A DNA stretch of 39,908 bases from Thermoplasmata archaeon. Its GTDB lineage: Archaea; Thermoplasmatota; Thermoplasmata; Lutacidiplasmatales; UBA184. The stretch spans positions 1-39,908 of the forward strand of contig JASHQC010000091.1 of assembly GCA_030037735.1 (NCBI GenBank). The letters are read 5' to 3'. The notes under the pieces are model-generated. The model searched no databases. It saw nothing but the letters and a program-made list of their open reading frames with translations, and was not told the DNA's origin. The number at the start of each line of letters is the position of its first letter. Position 1 is the stretch's first letter. A program made the position numbers and the translations under genes. This document shows, piece after piece, positions 19,172-26,000 of the stretch.

Positions 19172-19178
19172 CTTATTC
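19172..19178 (+). promoter_or_regulatory. TATA box of tRNA-Ala
   Basis: CTTATTC is centred 29 nt before the first base of the tRNA at 19204, the usual distance for archaeal tRNA promoters. Confidence 0.5.
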
Positions 19179-19203: not shown

Positions 19204-19308
19204 GGGCTGGTAGATCAGCGGAAGATCGCTACCTTGGCAAGGTAGAGGTCGCGAGTTCAAAGGGCGCGGAGCAGTCGCCTTCGGCGCCGGAAACTCTCGC
19301 CCAGTCCA
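19204..19308 (+). tRNA. tRNA-Ala(GGC) with T-loop intron
   Basis: The cloverleaf is complete once a 33-nt intron is removed. The acceptor GGGCTGG (19204-19210) pairs with CCAGTCC (19301-19307) and includes G3-U70, the alanine identity pair. The D stem is GATC/GATC. The anticodon stem CTACC/GGTAG encloses TTGGCAA with anticodon GGC at 19236-19238. The T stem is GCGAG (19251-19255) with CTCGC (19296-19300). The discriminator is A19308 and CCA is not encoded. Exon 1 ends with TTCAAA and exon 2 starts with T, which restores the consensus TTCAAAT T-loop. The mature length is 72 nt before CCA addition. Confidence 0.93.
19262..19294 (+). other. BHB intron in tRNA-Ala at position 59/60
   Basis: The pre-tRNA folds into a bulge-helix-bulge. 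The outer helix is the T stem (GCGAG/CTCGC). The central helix is TTCA (19256-19259) with GGAA (19289-19292), three pairs plus an A-G mismatch. The two 3-nt bulges are AAG (19260-19262) and ACT (19293-19295). The inner helix is GGCGC/GCGCC (19263-19267 and 19284-19288), closed by a 16-nt loop. Cleavage after the second base of each bulge gives the ends stated here. Confidence 0.85.
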
Positions 19309-19385
19309 CTCCCCCATTCGGCGGCGAGTACCGAGGGGGACTTCGATGGCTGTCGAACTCCTCGGACGACATGAAGGACCAACCC

Positions 19386-19391
19386 TTTATA
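19386..19391 (+). promoter_or_regulatory. TATA box of the mevalonate operon
   Basis: TTTATA is centred 27 nt before the GTG at 19415. This spacing argues for a leaderless mRNA and against an earlier ATG at 19346, which would place the TATA box inside the coding region. Between the tRNA end (19308) and here I see nothing else. Confidence 0.7.
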
Positions 19392-19414
19392 CCACTCCGG
19401 GGGTCGGCCGAAAT

Positions 19415-20092
19415 GTGGCAGCCGAACTCCGCGAGAAGATCGCGGGCGAGGTGGTCCTGTCCCCCCACCCGGGGAGAACGCTCCGGAAATGGCGGGAAGG
19501 GTTCCAGGTCTCGCAGCGGGAATTGTCGAAGGCTCTCGACACGGTGCCATCGGTGATCTCCGACTACGAAGCGGAGCGTCGCGCGAGCCCCGGGGCGACC
19601 TTCATTCGGCATTACGTCGACGCGTTGCTGGAGATCGACACACGGAACGGGCGGCGGATCGCCCAGCGACTGGGCAGCCGGCCCCACACCGAGGGAATCC
19701 TCGGCATGCGCGAGTTCGCCGTCGCGATTCCGCTCAAATCGGTCGCCGAGCTCCTCGACGCCAAGCCCGTGAGCACGGTCGACCTCCTCCGGGACATCCA
19801 CGGCTACACGTTATTGGACGCGCCACGCGCGATTCTCTCGATGGACGCGTCTCGCTTCGTCGAGGTCTACGGGTGGACCACCCAACGGGCCCTCATCTTC
19901 TCGAACGTGAAGTATGGCCGCTCCCCCATGGTGGCGGTGCGCGCCCATCCGCTCAAGCCCGCCGCCGTGATCTTCGCGAACCCCGGCCGAATCGACCCGC
20001 TCGCTGTCCGGTTGAGCGAGGTCGAGAACATTCCTCTCCTCGTGACGTCGCTGGGCCCAACGGATGTCTTACGTCGTCTCGAAGAGCTGTGA
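19415..20092 (+). CDS. XRE-type HTH regulator at head of mevalonate operon
   Basis: The 225-residue protein has a Cro/C1-type helix-turn-helix at about residues 18-60 ([30 protein letters not shown], key words [10 protein letters not shown] and PSVISDYE). A C-terminal domain follows with [32 protein letters not shown], which looks like a ligand-sensing region. This architecture (COG1709) is found in many archaea beside HMG-CoA synthase genes. It is a plausible autoregulator of the operon that senses a mevalonate-pathway metabolite (inference). The stop lies 7 nt before the HMG-CoA synthase ATG. The GTG start is supported by the TATA spacing. Confidence 0.85.
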
Positions 20093-20099
20093 TCGAATC

Positions 20100-21161
20100 A
20101 TGCAGCAAACGAAAGCCGGCATAGTGAGTTATGGAGTGTACGTCCCGCGGTACCGGATCACGCCCGCCGAGATCGGCCGCGTCTGGGGGGTCGATGGTTT
20201 CGCGATGGGACAGGGTCTAAACATCGAGCGCAAGAGCGTGCCGGCCCCCGACGAAGACACGGTCACGATCAGCACCGAGGCGCTCCGGGTCGCGCTCGTT
20301 CGTGGGAAAATTGAGCCGCAGGAGATTGGCGCGCTCTACATCGGCAGCGAATCCCACCCCTACGCCGTGAAACCGACGGCGACGATCGTGGCGCATGCGG
20401 TCGGCGCGACCCCGAATCTCACGGCCGCAGACTACGAGTTCGCGTGCAAGGCGGGCACGGCGGCGATTCAGACCTGTCTCGGGCTCGTGCGGTCGGAGAT
20501 GATCCGGTACGGGGTCGCGATCGGTACCGACACGTCCCAGGGAGCCCCGGGCGATGCCCTGGAGTACTCCGCCAGCGCCGGGGGCGCCGCGCTGGTCATC
20601 GGCCGGGAGAACGTCATCGCGACGGTGAACCACACCGTGTCGTATACCACCGACACGCCAGACTTCTGGCGCCGGGAGGGCCAACGGTACCCGAGCCACG
20701 GCGGTCGATTCACCGGCGAGCCGGCCTACTTCCGGCACGTCAGCGAGTGCGCCAAGTCGATGTTCAAGGCGGCCGGCACCACGACCAAGGACTACACCCA
20801 TGTCGTGTTCCACCAACCGAACGGCAAATTCCCGCGCCGGATCGGGACGCAGCTCGGGTTTACGGACGAGCAGATGAAGTACGGTATGGTCACCCCTCGG
20901 ATAGGGAACACGTACTCCGCCGCGGCGCTCATCGGGCTCGCGAACGCCCTGGACCACGCCAAACCCGACGAGCGGATCCTGGTTGTCGGCTACGGGTCGG
21001 GCGCCGGCTCCGACGCCTTCGACCTCACCGTCACCGATGCTCTGAGGAGCTACGACCGCTCCGTCGGGTTGCCGGTGCAGTATTTCCTCGACGGCGGGGT
21101 CGAGCTCTCGTACGCGGTGTACGCAAAGTACCGCGGCAAAATCGAAATGGGAGCGGCCTAA
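20100..21161 (+). CDS. Hydroxymethylglutaryl-CoA synthase
   Basis: This enzyme condenses acetyl-CoA with acetoacetyl-CoA to HMG-CoA, the committed carbon step of the mevalonate pathway to archaeal isoprenoid lipids. The 353-residue protein starts [20 protein letters not shown]. The catalytic Glu84 ([11 protein letters not shown]), the nucleophile Cys116 (YEFACKAGT) and His238 ([10 protein letters not shown]) are all present. An upstream ATG at 20064 lies inside the regulator gene and is rejected. In methanogens this enzyme forms a channelling complex with a thiolase and a DUF35 protein encoded next to it, exactly the arrangement here. Confidence 0.95.
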
Positions 21162-21163
21162 CC

Positions 21164-22333
21164 ATGCGCGACGTGGCCATCCTCGGCGTCGGCATGACGA
21201 AGTTCGGCGAGCTGTGGGACCGCTCGTTCCGCGAGATCGGCATCGAAGCGGGATTCCAGGCGCTCGTCGACGGAAAGCTATCGTCCCACGACCTCGAGGC
21301 CCTGTACCTCGGCAACATGGCGAGTGGTGCGTTCCTGGAGCAGGAACACATCGCGCCGCTCATTCTCGACTACGCCGGTCTCTCCGGACACCACTTGCCC
21401 GCCATTCGCGTCGAGGCGGGCGGCGCTTCCGGCGCGATGGCGCTGCATGAGGGGTACCTCGCCGTAGCGAGCGGGGCCCACGACTTCGTCGTAGTGGGAG
21501 GTGCGGAGAAGATGACCGACGTGTCGGACACCGAGGCGAGCCACGTCGTGGACGCCGCCGCGGATACGGAGTGGGAGCTCGTCTTCGGAGCCACACTGCC
21601 CTCCCTCTGGGCGATGGTCGCCCGGAAGCACATGCACGAGTACGGCACCCGCCGCGAGGACCTCGCCGCGCTGCCGGTGCACGACCACCAGATGGCCTCG
21701 AAGAATCCGTTGGCGCATTTCCGGAACAAGGTTAGTGTCGACCAGGTCGTGAACTCCGGGATGGTCGCGGACCCGCTAGGGGTGCTCGACTGCTCCCCGG
21801 TATCGGATGGCGCCGCCGCGGTGCTGCTCGGCCCACTGGAGAGCGCACGGAAATATACCGACACGCCGGTCAAGATCGCGGCGAGCCAGGTGGCGTGCGA
21901 TACGATGGCCCTTCACCACCGACGTGACCTCACCACCATGGACTCCACGGTGCTGGCAGGCAAGCGCGCGTTCACCCAGGCCCGGCGGAAACCGTCCGAC
22001 GTACAGGTCGCCGAGATCGACGACGCCTACTCCATCGGCGGCCTGATCGCGCTCGAGGACCTCGGCTTCCTGGCGAAGGGAGAGGCCGGTATGGCGATGC
22101 GCGACGGGCGTTTCTTCGGCAAGGGAACGACGCTGATCAATACCTCCGGGGGGCTCAAGGCCCAGGGCCGGCCGTTTGGAGCCGTCGGGGTGGCGCAAGT
22201 CGTGGAGCTGGTGCACCAGCTCCGGGGCGAGGCGAAGGACCGACAGATATCGGGCGCTCAGGTGGGGTTGGCGCACAACGTCGGCGGGACCGGCGCGACC
22301 AGCGTCGTGACGATGCTGGAGCGGGTGAACTAG
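21164..22333 (+). CDS. Thiolase homologue (SCP2 type) lacking catalytic residues
   Basis: By position and sequence this is the partner thiolase of HMG-CoA synthase (acetoacetyl-CoA synthesis): MRDVAILGVGMTKFGELW, GNMASGAFLEQEH, DCSPVSDGAAAV, NTSGGLKAQG and LAHNVGGTGAT are family segments and the length (389) is full. The catalytic positions are changed. The nucleophile expected in EAACASG is Gly87 (EAGGASG). The His of the HDCF-like motif is Asp286 (EIDDAYSI). The His of GHP is Arg336 (GRPFGA). His371 remains. The reading frame is intact and codon use matches the neighbours, so this looks like a retained but non-thiolytic subunit, perhaps a scaffold or acyl-CoA-binding protein. It starts 2 nt after the HMG-CoA synthase stop. 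Confidence 0.87.
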   Translation: MRDVAILGVGMTKFGELWDRSFREIGIEAGFQALVDGKLSSHDLEALYLGNMASGAFLEQEHIAPLILDYAGLSGHHLPAIRVEAGGASGAMALHEGYLAVASGAHDFVVVGGAEKMTDVSDTEASHVVDAAADTEWELVFGATLPSLWAMVARKHMHEYGTRREDLAALPVHDHQMASKNPLAHFRNKVSVDQVVNSGMVADPLGVLDCSPVSDGAAAVLLGPLESARKYTDTPVKIAASQVACDTMALHHRRDLTTMDSTVLAGKRAFTQARRKPSDVQVAEIDDAYSIGGLIALEDLGFLAKGEAGMAMRDGRFFGKGTTLINTSGGLKAQGRPFGAVGVAQVVELVHQLRGEAKDRQISGAQVGLAHNVGGTGATSVVTMLERVN

Positions 22334-22344
22334 GGGAGAGAAGC

Positions 22345-22839
22345 ATGCCGATTGCACGGTTCTGGAGAGAGACCCCGCGACGGTACAACCTCGGCGGCTC
22401 CCGGTGCGCCATCTGCTCGACGGTCTACTTCCCGCCCCGGTCGGTCTGCCCAACCTGCTCCGCGCATCGCCAATCGCTCGGAAAGATGGAACCGTTCCAC
22501 CTCTCTGGCGAGGGCGAGGTCGTCACGTTCTCGATCGTGCACGAGGCCGCCGAAGGCTTCGAGATGCAGGTCCCGTACGCTCTGGCGATCGTGCAGACCA
22601 TCGAGGGACCGCTCCTCACCGGCCAGGTCGTGAACATCGCACCGGAGGAGGTCAAGATCGGACTCAAGGTCCGGGCCACGTTCCGGAAACTCCGGGAGGA
22701 AGGGCCGGCCGGCGTGATCCACTACGGGTACAAGTTCGCGCCCAAGGAGGAGGCCGGGAGGGGACCGGGAGCGGGTCAGGAGGCTGAGCCGGCCACCATC
22801 CCGCCCGTCTCCCCCGAGTCGTCGCGCGCCCGAGCGTGA
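22345..22839 (+). CDS. DUF35 zinc-ribbon/OB-fold protein
   Basis: The 164-residue protein has an N-terminal helix (ARFWRETPRRYNL), a rubredoxin-like zinc ribbon (CAIC and CPTC, about residues 20-38) and an OB fold (GEGEVVTFSIVHEAAEGFEMQVPYALAIV). In the methanogen complex the DUF35 protein bridges thiolase and HMG-CoA synthase and shapes a shared CoA-binding site. The last 30 residues are a disordered Pro/Glu/Ala tail. It lies 11 nt after the thiolase homologue, and its stop overlaps the next start as GTGA. Confidence 0.92.
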   Translation: MPIARFWRETPRRYNLGGSRCAICSTVYFPPRSVCPTCSAHRQSLGKMEPFHLSGEGEVVTFSIVHEAAEGFEMQVPYALAIVQTIEGPLLTGQVVNIAPEEVKIGLKVRATFRKLREEGPAGVIHYGYKFAPKEEAGRGPGAGQEAEPATIPPVSPESSRARA

Positions 22840-25890: not shown

Positions 25891-26000
25891 CGGGCCTGTC
25901 GGGAATTTCCGCCGGAGGGAAGGTCGCTTCTCGCCGGCCTTTGAACCCGAGTTCGCTGGCTTAGAAGGCCAGTGCTTTGTCCCTGCTAAGCTACAGGCCC
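25891..26000 (-). tRNA. tRNA-Arg(TCT) with T-loop intron
   Basis: Read on the minus strand, the acceptor GGGCCTG (26000-25994) pairs with CAGGCCC (25898-25892) and the discriminator is G (25891). The D stem is GCTT/AAGC. The anticodon stem CTGGC/GCCAG encloses CTTCTAA, anticodon TCT. The T stem TCGGG (25950-25946) pairs with CCCGA (25903-25899). The T-loop TTCAAA (25945-25940) is separated from its last base T (25904) by 35 nt. After removal the loop is TTCAAAT, the tRNA is 75 nt, and all stems are fully paired. CCA is not encoded. Confidence 0.93.
25905..25939 (-). other. BHB intron in tRNA-Arg at position 59/60
   Basis: The fold repeats that of the tRNA-Ala intron. The outer helix is the T stem and the central helix is TTCA with GGAA including the same A-G mismatch. 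The bulges are AAG and ATT, and the inner helix is GCCGG/CCGGC with an 18-nt loop. The loop sequences of the two introns align with 10 of 16 identical bases without gaps (shared GAG, AG and CCTTC). Confidence 0.85.

Follow-up and report, generated by a model that had tools for sequence, protein, structure and literature searches.

Does a tRNA gene whose T-loop is broken by 33 nucleotides yield a working tRNA, and which enzyme would restore it? The question is raised by positions 19204-19308 of the window, as the whole stretch of DNA analysed here is called (39,908 nucleotides, contig JASHQC010000091.1 of the Thermoplasmata archaeon assembly GCA_030037735.1, order Lutacidiplasmatales). Position 59/60 of the tRNA is a known intron site, with Crenarchaeota and Nanoarchaeota as the rich sources (PMC4090602), and non-canonical introns have been described almost exclusively from Crenarchaeota, the exceptions including three thermophilic euryarchaeal methanogens (PMC3218864). 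Euryarchaeota with a one-gene splicing endonuclease EndA have been reviewed as having few tRNA introns, which are single and at the canonical position (PMC4090602), while among archaea Korarchaeum alone has been reported to combine an alpha2 enzyme with non-canonical introns (PMC4033280). Alpha'2 enzymes have been described as narrow, and the CSL and ASL loops as conferring breadth and co-occurring with intron diversity (PMC12397907, PMC6379350). The co-evolution model, in which non-canonical positions became accessible through the gain of a lysine loop (CSL/ASL), rests on these statements on one-gene EndA and on Korarchaeum.

With high confidence, we read the locus as a pre-tRNA-Ala(GGC) with a protein-spliced bulge-helix-bulge (BHB) intron at 59/60, processed by a fused EndA together with RtcB, and as one member of a set of such genes found throughout the class.

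The interrupted tRNA-Ala(GGC) gene

Read on the plus strand, 19204-19308 is a tRNA-Ala(GGC) gene interrupted in the T-loop, at 59/60, by a 33-nt intron, with the following features:

19172-19177, plus strand: possible TATA-like element CTTATT, recognized by eye about 27-32 nt upstream of the gene
19204-19261, plus strand: 5′ exon, tRNA positions 1-59 (sequence reading; a match of the covariance model R1, introduced below, covers 19204-19308)
19251-19255, plus strand: 5′ strand of the T-stem, within the 5′ exon
19256-19261, plus strand: T-loop positions 54-59, within the 5′ exon
19256-19259, plus strand: 5′ strand of the central helix H, UUCA (54-57), with A57 facing G
19260-19262, plus strand: 5′ bulge A58-A59-G, cut predicted as AA/G (BHB rule; 3-nt bulge in 12 of 12 cases in the same genome)
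19262-19294, plus strand: 33-nt intron at 59/60 (BHB geometry; conserved in 22 orthologues)
19263-19267, plus strand: 5′ strand of the intron hairpin h′, GGCGC, pairing with 19284-19288
19284-19288, plus strand: 3′ strand of h′, GCGCC, pairing with 19263-19267
19289-19292, plus strand: 3′ strand of H, GGAA
19293-19295, plus strand: 3′ bulge A-C-U60, cut predicted as AC/U (BHB rule)
19295-19308, plus strand: 3′ exon, with U60, the 3′ strands of the T-stem (19296-19300) and acceptor stem (19301-19307), and A73 (19308)

The original prediction that all stems pair upon removal of the 33 nt is borne out by the sequence: the acceptor stem pairs in 7/7 positions (GGGCUGG/CCAGUCC, including G3-U70), the D-stem in 4/4 (GAUC/GAUC), the anticodon stem in 5/5 (arm CUACC-UUGGCAA-GGUAG, loop UUGGCAA) and the T-stem in 5/5 (GCGAG/CUCGC). 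The T-loop then reads TTCAAAT (UUCAAAU in the RNA), as foreseen, which completes a normal cloverleaf; the same T-loop is present in two genes of the genome that have no intron, Ala(CGC) and Ala(UGC) (L004, L007). Downstream of the gene, window positions 19346-22839 encode an HTH regulator and an HMG-CoA synthase, followed by a probable thiolase and a small zinc-ribbon/OB-type protein, the last two assigned by sequence.

The window harbours a second gene of this kind, tRNA-Arg(UCU), which extends from 26000 to 25891:

25940-26000, minus strand: 5′ exon, tRNA positions 1-59 (RF00005 and R1 matches, and reading)
25905-25939, minus strand: 35-nt intron at 59/60, with H UUCA/GGAA and bulges AAG and AUU, conserved in relatives
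25891-25904, minus strand: 3′ exon

For annotation, the consequence is that ARAGORN misses the tRNAs of the window, reporting none, and that RF00005 truncates both genes. It scores Ala(GGC) at 29.1 bits against a threshold of 29, ends the match at 19259 and pairs the acceptor with a wrong 3′ strand, and its match for Arg(UCU) is confined to 25942-26000 on the minus strand. The covariance model R1, built of T-loop-intron pre-tRNAs, recognizes the full 105 nt of Ala(GGC) with 73 bits (E 4e-13), the sequence itself being part of the model. The BHB model of tRNAscan-SE 2.0 had Euryarchaeota in its training set (PMC8450103), so that databases may already list some of these introns.

The precursor and its bulge-helix-bulge motif

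It had been proposed that, prior to removal of the intron, the T-stem lacks its partner and the acceptor stem its 3′ strand. Both, however, lie 33 nt downstream and are paired in the minimum free energy (MFE) fold of the unspliced Ala precursor, so that this statement was too strong and the T-loop alone is interrupted. The fold comprises the paired acceptor stem and T-stem and, beyond a symmetric 7x7 internal loop, the intron hairpin; the MFE fold of the Arg(UCU) precursor has the same acceptor/T-stem/hairpin part. Each side of the 7x7 loop is composed of 4+3 nt, namely the two strands of H (54-57, UUCA, against GGAA) with the 5′ bulge A58-A59-G and the 3′ bulge A-C-U60, respectively. This corresponds to a bulge-helix-bulge, in which the T-stem takes the place of h and the intron hairpin that of h′. 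Two 3-nt bulges, a central helix of four positions and both flanking helices are in place, with three standard pairs in H, while the fourth and last position is an A57.G apposition. The suggestion that the central helix uses positions 54-57 was thus correct in placing these nucleotides within the BHB, but position 57 is not engaged in a standard pair. As the MFE fold of the Ala precursor displays the 7x7 internal loop instead of the central helix, covariation and shuffled sequences were relied upon.

Conservation, covariation and alternative readings

Relatives were fetched via the HMG-CoA synthase gene neighbouring tRNA-Ala(GGC) and include the genomes SubAcS15-31, AcS1-36 and AcS5-116. The SubAcS genomes have been assigned to Ca. 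Lutacidiplasmatales (PMC9287336), in a paper that nowhere uses the word 'intron'. MAG SubAcS15-31 appears to be a relative from the same genus as the window genome, since its matches have the coordinates of those in G028, a genome placed in that genus and probably the same assembly. The interrupted Ala(GGC) gene is located upstream of the HTH and HMG-CoA synthase genes in 13 Lutacidiplasmatales-like contigs, which are all that reach the place, and 22 of 22 distinct Ala(GGC) genes read from the family carry the 59/60 intron with a length of 27-34 nt. While the exons of these orthologues are 97% identical, the introns share 62% (51% for shuffled introns). Nevertheless, 96 of 110 h′ pairs are formed (42 +/- 5 upon shuffling, with a maximum of 58 in 2000 shuffles), as are 66 of 66 of the first three H pairs (33 +/- 4 in shuffles).

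The same pattern extends to 54 pre-tRNAs of the class, where each of the six h′ pairs shows substitutions in both strands, the covariation score exceeds that of every shuffle and pairing is lost when the h′ partners are slid, as befits a BHB intron at 59/60. This alignment was fitted to the model; the shuffle test on the 22 orthologues is independent of it. Position 57 faces C when it is G (31/31) and G or U when it is A in the aligned sets, and a further Ala(GGC) orthologue (L240) has A57.C, so that A.G is strongly preferred but not obligatory.

A second, intact Ala(GGC) gene, which the original prediction had named as an observation that would speak against it, is not detected by RF00005 in the own genome (85% complete). 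Among relatives, a pattern search that would match intact copies as well, and which is specific to the family and has no bearing on outgroups, found exactly one Ala(GGC) gene per genome in nine of nine family genomes, each with the intron.

Two other readings of the locus have to be weighed against these data. Since AAA precedes GGG and AAAC precedes T, cut sites one nucleotide over, at 58/59, would equally remove 33 nt, and would leave the T-loop UUCAACU in place of UUCAAAU. This register is very improbable: the 3+3 bulge geometry and the intact alanine paralogues with their TTCAAAT favour 59/60, and although the second letter of the 3′ bulge varies (ACT, ATT, AAT, AGT), the joined T-loop TTCRAAT is constant, which holds only with cuts at 59/60. 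That Ala(GGC) is a pseudogene, by decay or by interruption, or the scar of an integration, and stays unspliced, would agree with its being missed by standard gene finders, but the near-identity of the exons over 22 genes, next to introns that diverge yet keep their complementarity, argues against decay, as does the result that it is the sole Ala(GGC) gene found in each of the nine genomes. Archaea require tRNA-Ala(GGC) for GCC/GCU. We consider this reading exceedingly improbable and rejected it on the grounds of conservation with preserved complementarity. The initial proposal, a tRNA-Ala(GGC) with a BHB intron at 59/60 in a genome of the Thermoplasmatota, is upheld by the sequence, the R1 match, the orthologues and the taxonomy.

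T-loop introns in the genome and throughout the class

The own genome (1.77 Mb, 112 contigs, 85% complete) was searched with RF00005 and R1 and the matches were read by eye. This inventory contains 39 distinct tRNA genes, 12 of which possess a T-loop intron at 59/60: Ala(GGC), Arg(UCU), Arg(UCG), Asn, Ser(GCU), Ser(CGA), Glu(CUC), Gly(UCC), Gln(CUG), Lys(UUU), His and Leu(UAG). All 12 share a T-stem paired in 5/5 positions, the hairpin h′, bulges of 3+3 nt and an intron length of 29-35 nt, with H consisting of four pairs in six cases and of three pairs plus A57.G in the other six, including Ala(GGC). Introns at the canonical place were found in Tyr, Met, Glu(UUC) and Leu(UAA), and altogether 19 of the 39 tRNA genes, about half, are interrupted. 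Insertions in the D-loop, which look like BHB introns, were observed in addition to the T-loop intron in Lys(UUU) (C16, L037) and Leu(UAG) (C81, L205, L034), giving two introns per tRNA, and alone in initiator Met (C80, L207), Pro(UGG) (C101, L208) and Arg(GCG) (C60, L209). Two near-identical tRNA-Cys(GCA) matches close to contig ends (C5:45-117 and C97:220-292; L013, L014) are probably one gene seen twice via an assembly overlap.

Beyond this genome, R1 matches at E <= 1e-10 were obtained in 61 of 61 genomes of the order, with 4-11 matches per genome in the own family, and three sister-family genomes having 3 apiece. At E <= 1e-11, 187 of 300 genomes of the class have matches, 65 of the order and 122 of 235 others, the latter mostly with one or two each; the order and class counts are lower bounds, as filters were stricter and few candidates were scored per genome. 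None of 99 genomes in another euryarchaeal class, that of a Methanoregulaceae MAG, was matched by R1, a negative result no stronger than the positive searches made with this model. Reading of 21 matches outside the order, and of the out-of-order matches at E <= 1e-11, identified all of them as T-loop introns; they reside in Arg(UCU), Lys(UUU), Met/Ile(CAU) and other tRNAs, and H is mostly of the UUCG/CGAA type. MAGs with the labels Methanomethylophilaceae, Methanomassiliicoccus and Ca. Sysuiplasma are among the carriers. The original view that a T-loop intron is unusual in a Thermoplasmatota genome needs correction, as this intron is one of 12 in its genome and its kind is widespread in the class. 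T-loop introns in Arg(UCU) recur in other families of the class, and the Arg(UCU) genes L189 and L192 from outgroup Thermoplasmata combine an anticodon-loop insertion with a T-loop intron.

A fused splicing endonuclease without CSL or ASL

A single EndA gene was detected in the own genome, encoding 355 aa with two PF01974/PF02778 pairs, and a gene for the ligase candidate RtcB is present as well. Across the class, EndA generally has two domains and a frame of about 350 aa, and each of the 30 genomes of the order with a match has one such gene. Residues Y291, H299, K330 and R323 are invariant in 29 relatives and align to Y246, H257, K287 and R280 of Archaeoglobus fulgidus EndA. One gene, with a structural half fused to a catalytic half that bears the Tyr/His/Lys triad, is the arrangement of the alpha'2 type, and the fold likeness to the A. 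fulgidus and T. acidophilum enzymes suggests that the protein presumably acts as a homodimer. The AlphaFold2 model (pLDDT 92.5, pTM 0.86) matches, among PDB structures, the EndA of Methanopyrus kandleri, compared with its subunits fused (TM 0.88), better than the alpha'2 enzyme of A. fulgidus (0.75) and the epsilon2 enzyme of ARMAN (about 0.6). Neither of the lysine loops that are inserted close to the active site was found (ASL Y160-K161; CSL K44), the protein being colinear with A. fulgidus EndA at that site, and alignment and structure comparison showed it to be devoid of the inserts of ARMAN-2 EndA (4fz2; ASL) and of the chimera 3p1y, whose insert is taken to be the CSL.

Family f19 has EndA frames of about 290-310 aa with one detectable PF01974 domain, and no T-loop match. 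Genomes with a short EndA in families f15 and f19 are without T-loop matches, while genomes with the longer, two-domain EndA often have them; this association may reflect shared ancestry rather than cause.

Whether this enzyme alone suffices for the introns with A57.G, present in H of six of the 12 genes, can be questioned, since a narrow range is listed for the alpha'2 enzymes of A. fulgidus and T. acidophilum (PMC6379350) and a gene for a second enzyme or cofactor could be missing from a genome that is 85% complete. We regard such a helper as unlikely, as only one EndA gene is present here and one two-domain gene in each of the 30 genomes of the order, and all bulges are of exactly 3+3 nt. 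Moreover, the EndA with the closest fold, that of M. kandleri, is without CSL/ASL and cuts a relaxed BHB, if only slightly (PMC6379350). Removal of all these introns by the fused EndA is the preferred reading.

Proposed maturation and comparison with known systems

According to the structure, acceptor stem and T-stem would form in the precursor, with the BHB replacing the T-loop: positions 54-57 would face the 3′ end of the intron in H, flanked by the two 3-nt bulges, with h′ beyond. The fused EndA, as the sole splicing endonuclease detected, is predicted to cut inside both bulges, at AA/G and AC/U, and RtcB to join A59 to U60, which would yield the standard T-loop UUCAAAU. As 54-57 sit in the BHB, the T-loop would fold and meet the D-loop only after ligation. 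The original prediction that splicing precedes T-loop folding thus follows from the structure, and steps that require a folded T-loop would be expected to wait for splicing; modification of U54/U55 may likewise come after it, as was also proposed. Intron removal in M. kandleri has been found to be late, after end trimming and modification (PMC3695527).

Crenarchaeal introns, chiefly those of Thermoproteales, share with the present ones the position 59/60, the BHB type and the many interrupted genes, some with two introns (PMC4090602, PMC3218864). However, Thermoproteales and others possess an (alpha-beta)2 EndA with CSL, whereas here an acid-soil euryarchaeal lineage has one fused EndA without CSL and strict 3+3 bulges. 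M. kandleri, likewise a euryarchaeal exception, has a second, D-loop intron in tRNA-Glu and an EndA without CSL/ASL (5x89; PMC6379350, PMC3695527), but its EndA is an (alpha-beta)2 enzyme made of two separate subunits, in contrast to the single fused gene here, the additional introns of M. kandleri lie in the D-loop and its non-canonical introns are few. The Asgard Atabeyarchaeia and Freyarchaeia are also archaea from wetland-soil metagenomes with many, often non-canonical tRNA introns (PMC11291895), yet belong to another phylum and have 92-95% of their tRNA genes interrupted as opposed to about half here. ARMAN-2 provides, with its epsilon2 EndA, a single-gene enzyme that serves non-canonical, relaxed introns (PMC12397907, 4fz2), but as a three-unit epsilon protein with an ASL (Y160-K161), while the EndA of the own genome is built of two halves and lacks an ASL.

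The intron type itself, a BHB at 59/60, is known; new, as far as the literature compared reaches, are how common it is in a euryarchaeal lineage and its occurrence together with a fused EndA that lacks the loops, and no published description of these Thermoplasmata introns was found in that literature. We lean towards the view that T-loop introns of this one design are an old trait of the class Thermoplasmata that has largely escaped notice, that their share grew in Lutacidiplasmatales to around one third of all tRNA genes, as in the own genome, and that a naturally fused EndA lacking CSL/ASL would remove them. Archaeal introns in general have been suggested to protect the integrase sites that lie in tRNA genes (Randau and Soll, as cited in PMC3293823); for the build-up of the T-loop introns, neutral accumulation and such protection appear equally plausible.

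If this view is correct, diversity of intron position does not need CSL/ASL loops, and the recurrent central helix with A57.G represents a lineage-specific relaxed substrate. On the reading preferred here, a whole order breaks the position part of the co-evolution rule with a loop-less fused enzyme while exact 3+3 bulges are kept, and the position of an intron becomes separable from the relaxation of its motif. This question is testable, perhaps in cultured gut methanogens, as tRNA-Arg(UCU) has a T-loop intron in a MAG that bears the name Methanomethylophilaceae.
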